Shown here one piece after another: positions 1 to 9,666 of a DNA stretch of 64,000 bases. The DNA lies in contig JAKVOB010000001.1 in assembly GCA_022483015.1 (NCBI GenBank), forward strand, positions 620,001 through 684,000, in the 5' to 3' direction. The notes beneath the pieces are model-generated. The model did no database searches. It worked only from the letters and a program-made list of their open reading frames with translations, and was not told where the DNA came from. Source of the stretch: Atopobiaceae bacterium (GTDB taxonomy: Bacteria; Actinomycetota; Coriobacteriia; Coriobacteriales; Atopobiaceae). The position numbers and the translations under genes are program-made. Numbering within the stretch: the stretch's first letter is position 1; every line of letters begins with the position of its first letter.

Positions 1-2522
1 ACCCCGAGAAGCCGGACGTCGTCGTCCCGGTCGCCAAGCTGACCACCACCAAGGCGGTCACCTCCACCGGCACCGGCGAGGACGGCACCTACAAGGCCGG
101 TGACGTCGTCACCTACGACATCACCGTCACCAACACCGGCAACACCGACCTCGCGGGCATCACCGTCTCCGACGAGATGTCCGACGGCGGCACCGCCGCG
201 CTCTCCGACTCGGCCGCCTTCGACCTGGCCGCCGGCCAGACCAAGACCATCACGGCCACCTACACGGTGACCCAGGCCGACGTCGACGCCGGCACGACCG
301 TCACCAACGTGGCCACCGCCACGTCCAAGGGCGGCACGACCGACCCGTCCGACCCCGCGCCCTTCACGCCCGAGGCCCAGAACAAGGCCTACACCACGGC
401 CAAGACCGTCACCAACAAGGGCACCGGCGAGGACGGCGCCTTCAAGGCCGGCGAGACCGTCGACTTCGACATCACCGTCAAGAACACCGGCAACACGACC
501 CTCACCGACACGCTCGTCTCCGACGACCTCGCCGGCGCGACGGTCGTCGCGGGTGACGGCTACGCCGTGAACGCCGACGGCACCGCCACGGTCTCCTCGA
601 TCGCGCCGAACACCTCCGCCATTGTCAAGGCCACCTACACGGTCACCCAGGCCGACATCGACGCGGGCACCGTCACCAACGCCGCCACCGTCACGCCGTC
701 CGACCCCAAGGTCGACCCCGAGAAGCCGGACGTCGTCGTCCCGGTCGCCAAGCTGACCACCACCAAGGCGGTCACCTCCACCGGCACCGGCGAGGACGGC
801 ACCTACAAGGCCGGTGACGTCGTCACCTACGACATCACCGTCACCAACACCGGCAACACCGACCTCGCGGGCATCACCGTCTCCGACGAGATGTCCGACG
901 GCGGCACCGCCGCGCTCTCCGACTCGGCCGCCTTCGACCTGGCCGCCGGCCAGACCAAGACCATCACGGCCACCTACACGGTGACCCAGGCCGACGTCGA
1001 CGCCGGCACGACCGTCACCAACGTGGCCACCGCCACGTCCAAGGGCGGCACGACCGACCCGTCCGACCCCGCGCCCTTCACGCCCGAGGCCCAGAACAAG
1101 GCCTACACCACGGCCAAGACCGTCACCAACAAGGGCACCGGCGAGGACGGCGCCTTCAAGGCCGGCGAGACCGTCGACTTCGACATCACCGTCAAGAACA
1201 CCGGCAACACGACCCTCACCGACACGCTCGTCTCCGACGACCTCGCCGGCGCGACGGTCGTCGCGGGTGACGGCTACGCCGTGAACGCCGACGGCACCGC
1301 CACGGTCTCCTCGATCGCGCCGAACACCTCCGCCGCCGTCAAGGCCACCTACACGGTCACCCAGGCCGACATCGACGCGGGCACCGTCACCAACGCCGCC
1401 ACCGTCACGCCGTCCGACCCCAAGGTCGACCCCGAGAAGCCGGACGTCGTCGTCCCGGTCGCCAAGCTGACCACCACCAAGGCGGTCACCTCCACCGGCA
1501 CCGGCGAGGACGGCACCTACAAGGCCGGTGACGTCGTCACCTACGACATCACCGTCACCAACACCGGCAACACCGACCTCGCGGGCATCACCGTCTCCGA
1601 CGAGATGTCCGACGGCGGCACCGCCGCGCTCCCCGACTCGGCCGCCTTCGACCTGGCCGCCGGCCAGACCAAGACCATCACGGCCACCTACACGGTGACC
1701 CAGGCCGACGTCGACGCCGGCACGACCGTCACCAACGTGGCCACCGCCACGTCCAAGGGCGGCACGACCGACCCGTCCGACCCCGCGCCCTTCACGCCCG
1801 AGGCCCAGAACAAGGCCTACACCACGGCCAAGACCGTCACCAACAAGGGCACCGGCGAGGACGGCGCCTTCAAGGCCGGCGAGACCGTCGACTTCGACAT
1901 CACCGTCAAGAACACCGGCAACACGACCCTCACCGACACGCTCGTCTCCGACGACCTCGCCGGCGCGACGGTCGTCGCGGGTGACGGCTACGCCGTGAAC
2001 GCCGACGGCACCGCCACGGTCTCCTCGATCGCGCCGAACACCTCCGCCATTGTCAAGGCCACCTACACGGTCACCCAGGCCGACATCGACGCGGGCACCG
2101 TCACCAACGCCGCCACCGTCACGCCGTCCGACCCCAAGGTCGACCCCGAGAAGCCGGACGTCGTCGTCCCGGTCGCCAAGCTGACCACCACCAAGGCGGT
2201 CACCTCCACCGGCACCGGCGAGGACGGCACCTACAAGGCCGGTGACGTCGTCACCTACGACATCACCGTCACCAACACCGGCAACACCGACCTCGCGGGC
2301 ATCACCGTCTCCGACGAGATGTCCAACGGCGGCACCGCCGCGCTCTCCGACTCGGCCGCCTTCGACCTGGCCGCCGGCCAGACCAAGACCATCACGGCCA
2401 CCTACACGGTGACCCAGGCCGACGTCGACGCCGGCACGACCGTCACCAACGTGGCCACCGCCACGTCCAAGGGCGGCACGACCGACCCGTCCGACCCCGC
2501 GCCCTTCACGCCCGAGGCCCAG
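1..2522 (+). repeat. Tandem 714-bp repeats inside the surface-protein gene
   Basis: The period is exactly 714 bp (238 codons). Copies lie at 1-714, 715-1428, 1429-2142 and a partial fourth at 2143-2522, where identity stops after the codons for PEAQ. The copies are nearly identical at nucleotide level, including synonymous positions. I noticed only scattered changes: ATT versus GCC (Ile/Ala) near 621 and 1335, Ser to Pro near 1632, and Asp to Asn near 2325. The array extends beyond the left edge, so the true copy number is unknown and could be misassembled. Confidence 0.95.
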
Positions 2523-3314
2523 GCACCGTTGTTCACCTCTGAGAAGACGATTACGAGTACCCCGTCCAACGGCACCTCGTATGCCGCCGATGAGACAGTG
2601 ACCTTCGACATCGTCGTGACCAATACGGGCAACACGACCCTCACGGGCGTCGCCGTCAAGGACGAGCTTGCGGGTGCCACGATCGTCGAGGGCACGGGCT
2701 ACGCCGTGAACGCCGACGGCACCGCCACGGTCTCCTCGATCGCGCCGAACACCTCCGCCATTGTCAAGGCCACCTACACGGTCACCCAGGCCGACGTCGA
2801 CGCCGGGAACCTCTCCAATGTGGCCACGGTGACAACTTCCAATCCCGGTACCGACCCGCAGAAGCCCACGACCCCGATTCCGACCACTCCGCCCACGACG
2901 CCTGTCGTGCCCGGACCGACGACCCCGACCAATACGACCACGACCACGACCACAACGGTTACCACTAACACGACGGTCAACACGGTCATCTACCCGGTCG
3001 CGACCGTTCTCCAGAACGTCTACCAGTCAGCAGTCGGCGAGGAGCCCACGCCTCTGGCAGCGCCCTCGACCGAGTCCATCGACGAGAACGGCACGCCTCT
3101 GGCCACCACCGCCGAGCCGGTCTGCTGGGTCCACTGGTACATCATGCTGGGCATGCTCGTGACCCTCGTCTACGGCCTGGTCGTCCTGTTCCGCCGCCGC
3201 CGCTACACCAAGGGCCTCAAGAACCGCGAGAAGCACGTCCTCCGCGAGGACGACGACCAGCAGGACAAGCAGGGCGAGAGCGCCCCGACCATCCCATCAG
3301 GAGCTGAGGCTTAG
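1..3314 (+). CDS. Large repeat-built surface protein (DUF11-like domains), 5' truncated
   Basis: The reading frame is already open at the window start (codons begin at base 3), so the N-terminus is missing and 1103 residues are visible. The protein is a chain of roughly 119-residue beta-sandwich-like domains. Each has a TYDITVTNTGNT-type core and a TATYTVTQADVDAG-type end, the pattern of DUF11-like 'conserved repeat' surface proteins. Two alternating domain types make a 238-residue unit that repeats almost identically. A diverged last domain (bases 2523-2860), a Pro/Thr-rich stalk (2860-2990), one membrane helix (about 3125-3195), an RRRR stop-transfer motif and a charged tail follow. No LPxTG motif is visible, so it is probably anchored by the helix. 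The next gene starts 2 nt after the stop. Likely role is a cell-surface stalk or adhesin; this is inference and no ligand-binding domain is visible. Confidence 0.85.
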   Translation, partial: PEKPDVVVPVAKLTTTKAVTSTGTGEDGTYKAGDVVTYDITVTNTGNTDLAGITVSDEMSDGGTAALSDSAAFDLAAGQTKTITATYTVTQADVDAGTTVTNVATATSKGGTTDPSDPAPFTPEAQNKAYTTAKTVTNKGTGEDGAFKAGETVDFDITVKNTGNTTLTDTLVSDDLAGATVVAGDGYAVNADGTATVSSIAPNTSAIVKATYTVTQADIDAGTVTNAATVTPSDPKVDPEKPDVVVPVAKLTTTKAVTSTGTGEDGTYKAGDVVTYDITVTNTGNTDLAGITVSDEMSDGGTAALSDSAAFDLAAGQTKTITATYTVTQADVDAGTTVTNVATATSKGGTTDPSDPAPFTPEAQNKAYTTAKTVTNKGTGEDGAFKAGETVDFDITVKNTGNTTLTDTLVSDDLAGATVVAGDGYAVNADGTATVSSIAPNTSAAVKATYTVTQADIDAGTVTNAATVTPSDPKVDPEKPDVVVPVAKLTTTKAVTSTGTGEDGTYKAGDVVTYDITVTNTGNTDLAGITVSDEMSDGGTAALPDSAAFDLAAGQTKTITATYTVTQADVDAGTTVTNVATATSKGGTTDPSDPAPFTPEAQNKAYTTAKTVTNKGTGEDGAFKAGETVDFDITVKNTGNTTLTDTLVSDDLAGATVVAGDGYAVNADGTATVSSIAPNTSAIVKATYTVTQADIDAGTVTNAATVTPSDPKVDPEKPDVVVPVAKLTTTKAVTSTGTGEDGTYKAGDVVTYDITVTNTGNTDLAGITVSDEMSNGGTAALSDSAAFDLAAGQTKTITATYTVTQADVDAGTTVTNVATATSKGGTTDPSDPAPFTPEAQAPLFTSEKTITSTPSNGTSYAADETVTFDIVVTNTGNTTLTGVAVKDELAGATIVEGTGYAVNADGTATVSSIAPNTSAIVKATYTVTQADVDAGNLSNVATVTTSNPGTDPQKPTTPIPTTPPTTPVVPGPTTPTNTTTTTTTTVTTNTTVNTVIYPVATVLQNVYQSAVGEEPTPLAAPSTESIDENGTPLATTAEPVCWVHWYIMLGMLVTLVYGLVVLFRRRRYTKGLKNREKHVLREDDDQQDKQGESAPTIPSGAEA

Positions 3315-5690: not shown

Positions 5691-6139
5691 GGATCGGTGC
5701 CAGGCGGATGGTGCGACCACGGATGCTGGGGAGCGGCGGCTGCCGCGGCATCGGGTGTCCTCTTCCGCTGCATCGCGCGGGCGTCGTTATGCTCGCGATG
5801 ATCGGCGTCCGGTACGTGGAACCGGTGGTCGCGTAGGGGCGTGTGATTTCGGGCCGCGTGGGCTGAGCGAATCGGCGATTGCGCGAAGTCCTGTGGCGGC
5901 TGTGGACGGCGCGTCGAAAACCGCACCCAGATTCGAGGCGTCTGCCTGCAGGTATGTAGATGCCTCTTGAGCACCCGTCAAGGAACTTCTCGCAACCGAA
6001 AATCTCATCAGGAATCAGGCGACGGAATTACGCGCCTTGAATGGCAGGGGCCCAAATTCGCCTCACCTGTCAGGCGCCTCTATGATATGGGACCGTGATG
6101 CCGACCGCACCCTCTGGCTCGACGCCACCGCCTCATCGG
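5691..6139. other. Gene-poor stretch containing the first ~190-bp repeat
   Basis: No supported gene lies in these 449 bases. Bases 5691-5840 hold only short GC hairpins. Bases 5841-6031 are one copy of a long direct repeat, annotated separately. Bases 6032-6139 show nothing recognisable. Open frames on the minus strand follow the repeat in different frames in its two copies, which argues against coding. Confidence 0.7.
5841..6031. repeat. Direct repeat copy A (~191 bp)
   Basis: The sequence from GTGTGATTTCGGGCC to GGCGACGGAATTAC recurs in the same orientation at 7266-7455, with about 9 substitutions and one 1-base gap (roughly 95% identity). The two copies bracket the broken nuclease-like gene. 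No terminal inverted repeats or transposase are visible, so it may be a dispersed intergenic repeat family or a product of duplication. Confidence 0.9.
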
Positions 6140-7101
6140 CTATCCCAGTGTCCTTCTTAGAAGTAGCCTTCGAAGGTCGGTGCGCGCGGCGATGACCTTG
6201 GGCGTCGGTCTCCTGAGCTGCTTGCCGACACTCTTGGCGAGGACGTGCGCGAACGCCTCGAAGGTGTCCATGTCGTTTACCTGCTTGTTCGTGAGCGTAA
6301 GCACGGTGATGTTGCTGTAGTACAGCGCCCCACGCTTGGCGGCATCCTGCGCGATGCGGTCTGAGCCGGTATGCCATGCATCCGAGTCGTACTCGATGGC
6401 GACGCGCGCCTTCGGCCAGAGGAGGTCGCAGCGATGCCAGCCCTTATGTGACAGCGCGGACGCCTGCTCGCTGTTGTGGACGATGGCATTGAGCACAGGT
6501 AGCTCGAACCCATAGCCGCCAAGGCACAGCGGCAGGCAGAGGAGCATCATGCTGACAGTCTCGCGAGGGACTCCGATCCGTCGATGATCCACTGGAGCGC
6601 TCGCCGCGCCCGTTTGATGCCATGAAGGCCGCCCGCCTTCTTGAGATAACGCTCGAGCTTCCTTGAGGTGGTGATGGGGTTATGCGAGGTGAAGCCACCG
6701 TCGGCCCCGGGCATGATGGAGTAGCCCCCGCAGAGCTCAAGACCTGCGAGGACGAGTTCGCCGACCGAGGAATCCTGGGCGAGCTGGAGGAAGCAGTGCT
6801 CGGGCGAGGGGACCAGGAGGTCATCGCCCGCCGACATGAGGGATCCCACGGGAATATGGCTCTTCACCACCCTGCAGACGAGGTCCCTGCGGACGCGTCT
6901 GTCGGCTTCGGCGGGGACCAGAAGCGTGGTGGGGCTGCCAAGCTTGTCGAGCAGCTTGCGGTCCATGGCAGAGAGGCGCTCGAAGCCGGCATCGAACGTG
7001 GATGCAGAAGCGACTCGGGACGGCGTCGGCTCTGGCAGCTGGCCTGAGGAGACAAGGCGCCAGTACCAGCGCGCGGTGTCAAAGCCGATGGCGGCGGTCA
7101 T
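6140..7101 (-). pseudogene. Frameshifted nuclease-like gene (PD-(D/E)XK/DUF559-like C-terminus)
   Basis: Two overlapping minus-strand frames form one ~320-aa protein. The ATG at 7101 follows GAGGAG; the frame runs to a stop at 6547. The -1 frame resumes around 6570 with ETVSMMLLCLPLCLGGYGF and ends at 6140. Restoring one C in the run at 6567-6569 joins them. The N-terminal part (DRKLLDKLGSPTTLLV, then SPEHCFLQLA) is unassigned. The C-terminal part has RCDLLWPKARVAIEYDSD and DRIAQDAAKR, which resembles the D...ExD core of small PD-(D/E)XK nucleases such as DUF559 or Vsr-like domains. The substrate is unknown. The break may be a true mutation or a sequencing indel. It lies between direct repeats, suggesting an accessory, possibly mobile, locus. 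Confidence 0.6.
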
Positions 7102-7265
7102 TCCTGGCTCCTCTCGTATGGGGCCTTGTGGTGGGTCAGACTTACGATCTGCTGGGGTGGACATCATCCCATGCCTCTCTTACGTACGACGCGCTGGGGT
7201 TCCTGTGGCTACCGAAGGGTCAATAATCGATGGCGAGCGGCTTGGCAGGGGGAGCGGCGACGCTC

Positions 7266-7455
7266 GTGTGATTTCGGGCCGCGCGGGCTGAGCGAATCGG
7301 CGATTGCGCGAAGTTCTGCGGCGGCTGTGGACGGCGCGTCGAAACCGCACCCAGATTCGAGGCGTCTGCCTGCAGGTATGTAGATGCCCCATGAGCACCC
7401 GCGAAGGAACTTCTCGCAACCGAAAATCTCATCAGGAATCGGGCGACGGAATTAC
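7266..7455. repeat. Direct repeat copy B (~190 bp)
   Basis: Second copy of the element at 5841-6031, same orientation, about 95% identical, one base shorter in an A run. About 1.2 kb separates the two copies and consists mainly of the nuclease-like gene. Confidence 0.9.
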
Positions 7456-7509
7456 ACGTGCCGTCTCGGGTCATGTGGCTTAGACGCAAGATTCTACTGA
7501 CGGGTGTGC

Positions 7510-7533: not shown

Positions 7534-7618
7534 AAGCCTCCAAACGGGCATAAGGCGGGCCGCTGCCAGGCGCCGCAATCTCCCCTCAAATGTGGAAATG
7601 AGAAAACCTACTACATTC

Positions 7619-7660
7619 ACACTTAGGTTTTGTATATCATGAGCGCTCAGTGGTTATATA
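7619..7660 (+). promoter_or_regulatory. dnaK promoter/operator region
   Basis: ACACTTAG (7619-7626) is shared with the clpB upstream region. A -35-like TTGTAT (7630-7635) and a -10-like TTATAT (7654-7659) are 18 nt apart, and the perfect palindrome TGAGCGCTCA (7640-7649) lies between them. No canonical HAIR or CIRCE element was found. These are candidate HspR sites by inference only. Confidence 0.5.
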
Positions 7661-7729: not shown

Positions 7730-9666
7730 ATGGGCAACAAGATTCTGGGCATCGACCTCGGCACCACCAACTCCGCCATGGCCGTCCTCGAGGGCGGCGA
7801 GCCTACCATCATCGTGAACGCCGAGGGCGACCGCACCACGCCGTCCGTCGTGGGCTTCCGCGCCGACGGCGACCGCATCGTCGGCAAGGCAGCCAAGAAC
7901 CAGGCCGTCACCAACCCCACCAACACCGTCTTCTCGATCAAGCGCTTCATGGGCCGCAAGATCGACGAGGTCGAGTCCGAGCTCAAGACCGTCCCGTACG
8001 ACGTCGTCGGCGGCAAGGACAACCGCGCCGTCGTCAAGATCTCGGGCGAGGACTTCACGCCCGAGCAGATCAGCGCCATGATCCTCTCCAAGATGAAGGC
8101 CGACGCCGAGAAGTACCTCGGCGAGCCCGTCACGGATGCGGTCATCACCGTCCCTGCCTACTTCAACGACTCCCAGCGTCAGGCCACCAAGGACGCCGGC
8201 AAGATCGCGGGCCTCAACGTCGAGCGTATCGTCAACGAGCCCACGGCTGCCGCGCTTGCCTACGGCCTGGACAAGAAGGGCATCGAGCAGAAGGTCCTGG
8301 TCTTCGACCTGGGCGGCGGCACGTTCGACGTCTCCCTGCTCGACCTCGCTGACGGCGTCTTCGAGGTCCTCGCCACCAACGGCGACAACCACCTGGGCGG
8401 CGACGACTGGGACCAGCGCGTCATCGACTGGATGGCCGACAAGTTCCAGAAGGACAACGGCATCGACCTGCGCAAGGACCCCATGGCCCTGCAGCGCCTG
8501 AAGGAGGCCGCCGAGAACGCCAAGAAGGAGCTCTCCAGCGCCCAGCAGGCCCAGATCAACCTGCCGTTCATCACCGCCGATGCCTCCGGCCCCAAGCACC
8601 TCGACTACACGCTCACGCGTGCCGAGTTCGAGAAGATCACGCGTGACCTTCTCGACCGCTGCAAGGCCCCTGTCACCAAGGCGCTCCACGACGCCAACAT
8701 GCAGATCTCTGACGTCTCCGAGGTCATCCTCGTCGGCGGCTCGAGCCGCATGCCCGCCGTGCAGGACCTCGTGAAGTCCATCACCGGCAAGCAGCCCAAC
8801 ATGTCCGTCAACCCCGACGAGGTCGTCGCCGACGGCGCGGCCGTCCAGGGCGGCGTCCTCACGGGCGACGTCGACGGCATCCTGCTCCTCGACGTCACGC
8901 CGCTGTCGCTTGGTGTCGAGACCATGGGCGGCGTCATGACCAAGATGATCGATCGCAACACCACCATCCCGACGTCCAAGACCGACGTCTACTCCACCGC
9001 GGCCGACAACCAGACCTCGGTCGAGATCAACGTCCTCCAGGGCGAGCGCGAGATGGCCACGGACAACAAGAGCCTCGGCAAGTTCCAGCTCACCGGAATC
9101 CCAGCAGCACGCCGCGGCACGCCCAAGATCGAGGTCTCCTTCGACATCGACGCCAACGGCATCGTGAAGGTCTCCGCCAAGGACCTCGGCACCGGCAAGC
9201 AGCAGCAGATCACCATCTCTGGCTCCACCGCGCTGTCTGACGACGAGGTCGACCGCATGGTCAAGGACGCCGAGGGCCACGCCGAGGAGGACAAGAAGCG
9301 CAAGGACGAGATCGAGGTCCGCAACCAGACCGACTCCCTGGCCTACTCCACCGAGCAGACCGTCAAGGAGCTCGGCGACAAGGTCCCCGCAGACCAGAAG
9401 AAGGCTGCCGAGGATGCCGTGGCCGAGGCCAAGAAGGCCCTCGACGGCACCGACGTCGACGCCATCAAGGCCGCCTGGCGACAAGCTCCAGGAGGTCGGC
9501 CACAAGCTTGCCGAGGTCGTCTACTCGCAGGCCCAGTCCGACGCTGCCACGGGTGACGCAGGGCGCTGCCGGTGCCGCAGGTGCGGCCACGGGCTCCGCT
9601 GACGACGTGGTCGACGCCGACTACGAGGTCGTGGACGACGACAAGGACGAGAAGAAGAACGACTAG
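7730..9666 (+). CDS. dnaK: Hsp70 chaperone DnaK (two single-base frame breaks near the C-terminus)
   Basis: ATP-dependent Hsp70 that binds exposed hydrophobic segments of unfolded proteins with DnaJ and GrpE. The start is ATG 7730 after AAGGAAAGG (7714-7722), giving [17 protein letters not shown], the phosphate-1 motif. [14 protein letters not shown] and [13 protein letters not shown] are the other ATPase signatures, and [18 protein letters not shown] marks the linker and start of the substrate domain. Near 9474-9480 the frame shifts by +1, and again at the GGG run 9561-9563. The frame as written ends at 9556. With both extra bases removed the lid continues and ends in [17 protein letters not shown] with TAG at 9664-9666 (644 aa). 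Since dnaK should be functional, assembly indels are the likely cause. First gene of dnaK-grpE-dnaJ-hspR. Confidence 0.95.

Follow-up and report, generated by a model that had tools for sequence, protein, structure and literature searches.

Two Copies of a Hairpin Element Bracket a Nuclease-Like Gene

In a 64,000-nucleotide stretch of an Atopobiaceae genome, referred to here as the window, two nearly identical repeats enclose a single gene, which raises the question of what these repeats are and whether they belong to the gene between them. The initial annotation had described direct repeats of ~190 bp with ~95% identity and the same orientation, and their positions and identity were confirmed by BLAST and alignment. 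Copy A is located at 5838–6036 on the minus strand, 3′ of the nuclease gene, and was delimited by BLAST, a covariance model (195 bits), and alignment. Copy B (7263–7460, minus strand, 199 bits) is 95% identical to A and lies upstream of dnaK, on the 5′ side of the nuclease gene. A BLAST search with A against the genome matched B over ~195 bp at 95% identity (E 1.1e-82), with 95–96% identity in the ungapped blocks, and the starts of the two equally oriented copies are 1424–1425 bases apart. A 30-base core of the repeat occurs twice in the window and in none of 100 shuffles. In the alignment, the likeness of A and B ends at both element bounds, so that they represent discrete element copies and not a segmental duplication.

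Each copy forms an imperfect hairpin over its full length, in which inverted arms are conserved while the centre varies; when the minus strand is read, the related arms lie inverted at the start and the end of the copy. In A, the left conserved arm (CTGATGAGA...) spans 5987–6011 and the right conserved arm (...CGATTCGCTCAG) spans 5863–5887, and the same alignment places the arms of B at 7411–7435 and 7288–7312, respectively, all on the minus strand. The left arms correspond to alignment columns 26–50, with 19 of 25 columns invariant across six copies of the element, and the right arms to columns 152–176, with 21 of 25 invariant. Of the 31 outer-helix pairs, 28 are formed in A and 29 in B (28–31 over the six copies). 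The BLAST palindrome test detected no palindrome in the A/B pair. RNA folding, which had been suggested as a check, bore out the pairing of the hairpin arms only: the centre by itself does not exceed shuffled sequences in stability and the two strands fold about equally, for which reason a structured RNA transcribed from one strand was rejected and our claim is limited to the hairpin arms. The repeats have no match in Rfam, and a hammerhead-like CUGAUGA motif was dismissed because Rfam gives it no support. Integron attC core sites carry an invariant AAC/GTT triplet; this triplet differs among the copies (AAT in A and B, GAC in L004c), and an attC identity was rejected. IS256-type ends were discarded as well, since no PF00872 (IS256-type) transposase gene is present in the genome. 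Excision of the enclosed gene by recombination between A and B is possible, as it is for any direct repeats.

The Enclosed Gene Encodes a Predicted Vsr/DUF559-Like Nuclease

Two overlapping minus-strand frames make up the gene enclosed by A and B; each aligns with one half of intact relatives of 328–350 aa, and together they span these end to end. The N-terminal part is covered by an ORF at 6547–7167, of which residues 23–200 align with residues 1–196 of a relative, placing the start near 7101. The C-terminal domain lies in the second frame (ORF at 6140–6592), and its profile finds its best solved-structure match in PDB 3r3p, labelled “Mobile intron protein” (E 1.6e-4), which we take to be an EDxHD homing endonuclease. 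PADLOC likewise gave a weak homing endonuclease match (E 0.005). Neither DUF559 nor MTES_1575 reached the curated domain cut-off (best scores in the relatives of 20.3 bits against 20.6 and 22.9 against 38.2, respectively), and the Y1 family was matched by neither the window gene nor its relatives, whereas DUF559, MTES_1575, and PDB 3r3p were matched weakly. The N-terminal part of ~190 aa has no Pfam match. Conserved acidic and histidine residues are expected in Vsr/DUF559-like nucleases; D56, E67, H74, and D83 are invariant in nine sequences of the C-terminal domain, and in the alignment with 3r3p, itself a weak match, E and D correspond but H does not. The predicted structure, with a mean pLDDT of 36, is too uncertain to be of use. 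The C-terminus, initially termed restriction-endonuclease-like, is thus nuclease-like by weak profile matches, and these matches suggest a Vsr/DUF559-like nuclease as the gene product.

The gene had also been called broken. It is indeed read in two frames, but a break is doubtful as biology in view of frame changes in dnaK and of intact paralogs in the same genome, which are ~28–39% identical to the window gene. dnaK lies 270 bases from B, and compared to the dnaK of the same genus its frame shifts twice within the last ~60 codons (window 9470–9610); the break in the nuclease gene may therefore be an indel error of the assembly, and plausibly is one. Relatives of the nuclease gene were matched in 127 of 140 genomes of the bacterial family, with five matches in the own genome; none was found in phages, and plasmids yielded one weak match, from Streptomyces.

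The description of the locus as lying between two unrelated operons is fair, with a DUF2871 gene on one side and dnaK on the other. The genus is represented by one other genome, G001, in which other genes lie upstream of dnaK, so that no empty site can be read for the window locus. Upstream of dnaK, the stretch 7581–7650 (about CCCCTCAAATG to TTTTGTATA) is shared with G001 and, going by this conservation, is likely the dnaK promoter region; in the window it is followed by the palindrome TGAGCGCTCA, which is absent from G001. A large surface-type protein with long near-identical repeated segments and a C-terminal membrane segment is encoded at window positions 1–3314.

Bracketing Is General for the Nuclease Family

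The left and right flanks of nuclease genes, at most 800 bases each, were compared with each other at 78 of 79 loci, 60 of which had been added to the initial set, whereas L162 was left out on account of its 3-bp flank. These loci are the best matches of the nuclease; close relatives of the window gene are over-represented among them, and several are orthologs. At the window locus, the C-terminal frame counted as the gene, and the N-terminal part therefore falls into the left flank. Matching flanks were found at 44 of the 78 loci at E<1e-3, at 39 at 1e-6, and at 30 at 1e-10. The best match was direct at 24 and inverted at 20 of the 44 loci, an inverted share that is expected if many brackets are palindromes. 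Among control genes in 20-kb stretches from 20 of the same genomes, 13 of 214 had matching flanks (size-matched, 5 of 73), as did 8 of 615 mixed flank pairs and 3 of 31 window genes. Fisher tests gave 1e-19, or 2e-11 with size matching, with loci treated as independent although several are orthologs. In a sample of the own genome, 15 of 206 other ORFs compare with 3 of 4 nuclease genes. Of the four nuclease genes of this genome other than that of the window, three are bracketed by direct repeats, each of a different sequence. No flank match was obtained at 34 of the 78 loci, including L064 of the own genome. Bracketing is thus general for the nuclease family within the bacterial family of the window.

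The brackets lie close to the genes, at median distances of 141 bp before the start and 55 bp after the stop codon, and match over a median of 72.5 bases. Their median fold z is -2.23, compared to -0.14 for outer flank pieces. Palindromes within 300 bases were present upstream at 34, downstream at 46, and on both sides at 23 of the 78 nuclease loci, and at 15, 17, and 3 of 73 control genes, respectively; for the bracket pairs of L063, L141, and L160, the BLAST test was negative for a palindrome. Brackets are thus often hairpins. When the 44 brackets were compared in all pairs, five cross-locus matches emerged, at least one of which (L130/L134) connects orthologous loci. Bracket pairs are therefore mostly private to one locus. 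A k-mer count yielded mainly A-rich words and no clear common motif in the brackets.

Several bracket sequences recur elsewhere in their genome. Within 482 kb of the own genome, three extra places were found for the L065 pair and one for the L063 pair, and within 419 kb of genome G020 the L122 pair had four and the L161 pair three, that is, two of four bracket pairs. No dispersed copy was present in the samples for L062 (482 kb of the own genome), L024, and L141. Elements of other genomes matched neither the G020 sample (0/36) nor the own sample (0/32). Of the dispersed copies, 15 were checked, and not one lies within 3 kb of a nuclease gene. In this G+C-rich DNA, many dispersed places overlap a long ORF of some kind, so that not all of them are claimed to be intergenic. 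The L065 hairpins are 97.1% paired with three two-sided changes, all in one copy, which may be one event.

Some arrangements lie beside this pattern. In a control stretch, an ATPase-like gene (497 aa; L183, 9434–10928) is bracketed by an 83-base direct repeat of 84% identity, and other gene types may share the bracketed arrangement. At the G001 nuclease locus L067, tandem hairpins of the CTAACCGTTCGATTC type (1793–2049) are located on one side of the gene, and the other side has no match. Past the stop codon, L143 and L145 differ by 80 bp, which was judged not to be bracket-like.

Brackets Turn Over Rapidly at an Orthologous Site

One site carries a nuclease gene in each of five species of one genus (L149, L164, L171, L174, and L178). 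Here, the downstream flanks are ~91% alike and the nuclease proteins 56–78% identical, and most left and most right brackets cannot be aligned between species, with L164/L178 (left) and L171/L174 (right) as the best exceptions. Within the locus, left and right match at E<1e-3 in four of the five species; in L174, the trimmed left and right pieces match at E 0.023. At this site, the brackets turn over fast and the two sides stay alike in most species. Eight hairpins of the site, which were chosen for being hairpins, show interspecies differences at up to 7 of 13 bases of their outer arms and retain 99 Watson–Crick and 3 G–U pairs at 104 positions; in L171 and L174, the left side is not a whole hairpin. 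Paired arm change of this kind is the trace that recognition of the hairpin, or copying between its arms, would leave. Elsewhere, L062 and L068 represent, by their flanks (89% and 81%), the same site in the two genomes of the window's genus, with nuclease proteins only 51% identical.

The Window Element Belongs to a Small Dispersed Family

The assumption that the repeat may be part of a dispersed family proved correct, as DNA and covariance-model searches identified six strong copies genome-wide. Besides A and B, these are located at 451446–451643, 459324–459521, 824321–824518, and 1239965–1240164. The repeats are therefore not unique to the site as a simple tandem duplication, the outcome named beforehand as contrary to the initial proposal: four further copies exist and the elements end sharply. 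The four are 60–67% identical to A and B, and pairwise identity over the family ranges from 0.60 to 0.93. Among four representatives, identity amounts to 0.89 and 0.96 in the 25-column arms, 0.56 in the centre, and 0.61–0.68 at the tips. As judged from sequence conservation, it is on the inverted arms that the force maintaining the family acts. Over the six copies, covariation exceeded that of shuffles (0 of 500 for the score, 9 of 500 for pairs changed on both sides), which is modest support because A/B and two other copies are near relatives. By the neighbouring genes as read, the copies sit between genes, and two of the four solitary ones between convergent genes. None of the four has a nuclease gene within 3 kb; the proposed check of copy number and adjacency thus revealed dispersed copies that are not adjacent to such a gene.

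A DNA search of 140 genomes of the bacterial family matched the own genome and none of the 139 relatives. The covariance model produced marginal matches in seven others of these genomes (best E 0.0026 per genome), which were unconvincing on inspection. A pattern scan of 84,980 species, with one genome each, gave eight scattered matches, about the number estimated for chance, and a scan of viral contigs gave none; phages yielded two 35-base matches and plasmids none. As far as these tools see, the window family appears restricted to its own species.

Around the six copies, the longest common flank word measures 0–6 bases, a length of 6 being reached by 9% of random flank pairs, and a target-site duplication was thus not found. 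No further place in the genome shares the arms in DNA and model searches for an autonomous element, and composite-transposon flanks were rejected, as none were found. For the surroundings of the four further copies, no clean empty site was present in G001. The ptsH–tgt interval (L077, 3320–3880, and L113; names by reading) holds a solitary hairpin in the own genome and a HAD-type hydrolase gene in G001.

A Putative Nuclease–Hairpin Partnership Resembling REPIN/RAYT

The association of nuclease genes with hairpins is observed, and we infer that the nuclease acts on them. With a probability of about 0.6, the arrangement is a REPIN/RAYT-like system whose enzyme, partnered with a hairpin family of its own, is a Vsr-like nuclease instead of a Y1 transposase. 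According to PMC3116915, REPIN/RAYT systems comprise distinct single-copy enzymes that are hardly mobile and co-evolve each with its own hairpin class. As far as described there, the likeness extends to a locus-specific enzyme gene with flanking hairpins, whose class is particular to each enzyme, and to dispersed copies built from two conserved inverted arms and a variable spacer. Both features are found here, the former at A/B and among the 44 of 78 bracketed loci and the latter in the dispersed copies, but the Y1 enzyme is not: RAYT is a Y1 (HUH) transposase, whereas the present enzyme is Vsr/DUF559-like. Furthermore, the elements here reach ~200 bp, look low in copy number, and appear restricted to one genome or close relatives.

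In such a system, A and B would bracket the nuclease gene as two members of the private hairpin family belonging to it, and a single-copy, locus-specific enzyme gene would sit between two copies of its own hairpin. The enzyme would let hairpin copies arise elsewhere in the genome and keep the bracket pair alike. Its Vsr-like domain might nick or cut the hairpin, as a cruciform or as a single-stranded hairpin, and repair or strand transfer might then copy the hairpin to new sites. The C-terminal domain resembles Vsr and Vsr-like DUF559 endonucleases (PMC12907096) by weak Pfam and PDB profile matches, but here it is joined to the N-terminal part without a Pfam match and the gene carries hairpin brackets. 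Since the anatomy is close to REPIN/RAYT but the enzyme matches another fold, we call the system REPIN/RAYT-like; at somewhat below even odds, it would form a separate element class outside that lineage, in which Vsr-like nucleases each recognize and propagate their own hairpins and co-evolve with them at fixed sites, the nuclease fold serving as the engine of dissemination.

It is unlikely that the gene encodes a free-standing homing-type endonuclease targeting its own hairpins, with the solitary hairpins as unoccupied sites and the bracket pair as homology arms for gene copying. The 3r3p (E 1.6e-4) and PADLOC (E 0.005) matches agree with such an enzyme, and brackets together with solitary copies fit a target family. 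However, 3r3p bears the label of a mobile intron protein, whereas the present gene has a whole hairpin on either side and no known intron; moreover, the nuclease paralogs of the own genome are different genes (~28–39% identical to the window gene), and among the loci examined no hairpin family was seen to accompany one and the same nuclease gene twice in a genome.

We consider it quite improbable that the hairpins are ordinary MITEs moved by another transposase, e.g., a RAYT or an IS element, with the nuclease as a bystander. In its size and inverted arms, the window family agrees with bacterial MITEs as characterized in PMC2229807 and PMC10969869, e.g., ERIC and YPAL/RU-2, which are non-coding, ~100–200 bp long, and form a stable hairpin from inverted repeats; like YPAL as described there, the window element is not A+T-rich. 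The window element is likewise small and non-coding with terminal inverted repeats, but it lacks a detectable target-site duplication, and no autonomous partner with the same ends, no further place with the same arms, and no IS256-type transposase were found in the genome. In addition, the association with nuclease genes is steady, bracketing being enriched at them (44/78 vs. 13/214), and the brackets are mostly private to each locus.

That the hairpins are regulatory and immobile, as terminators or mRNA-stability elements of the nuclease and other genes, would suit brackets placed just past the stop codon (median 55 bp) and the two of four solitary copies between convergent genes; this is very improbable, as a terminator needs no sequence common to both sides of one gene and the terminator scan around A/B was at chance (1 found, 1.1 expected). 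A local duplication or a single accessory insertion, the latter proposed by the initial annotation, is what a repeat pair with one gene looks like in the window alone, but it is hardly credible, given that the likeness ends at the element bounds, that four more copies exist, and that the arrangement recurs across the bacterial family, at 44 of 78 loci mostly with a repeat of its own and in at least one case at a site orthologous in five species.

Among the papers listed in limited literature searches, which covered few subscription papers, none joins DUF559 or Vsr-like nucleases with flanking palindromes; the arrangement appears undescribed, although such absence is weak evidence of novelty. 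If the REPIN/RAYT-like partnership holds true, enzyme-plus-hairpin partnerships arose more than once, with unrelated nucleases, and a large gene family of unassigned role, matched in 127 of 140 genomes, would gain a testable one. Many genomes hold several natural nuclease/hairpin pairs, on which recognition and co-evolution can be tested.
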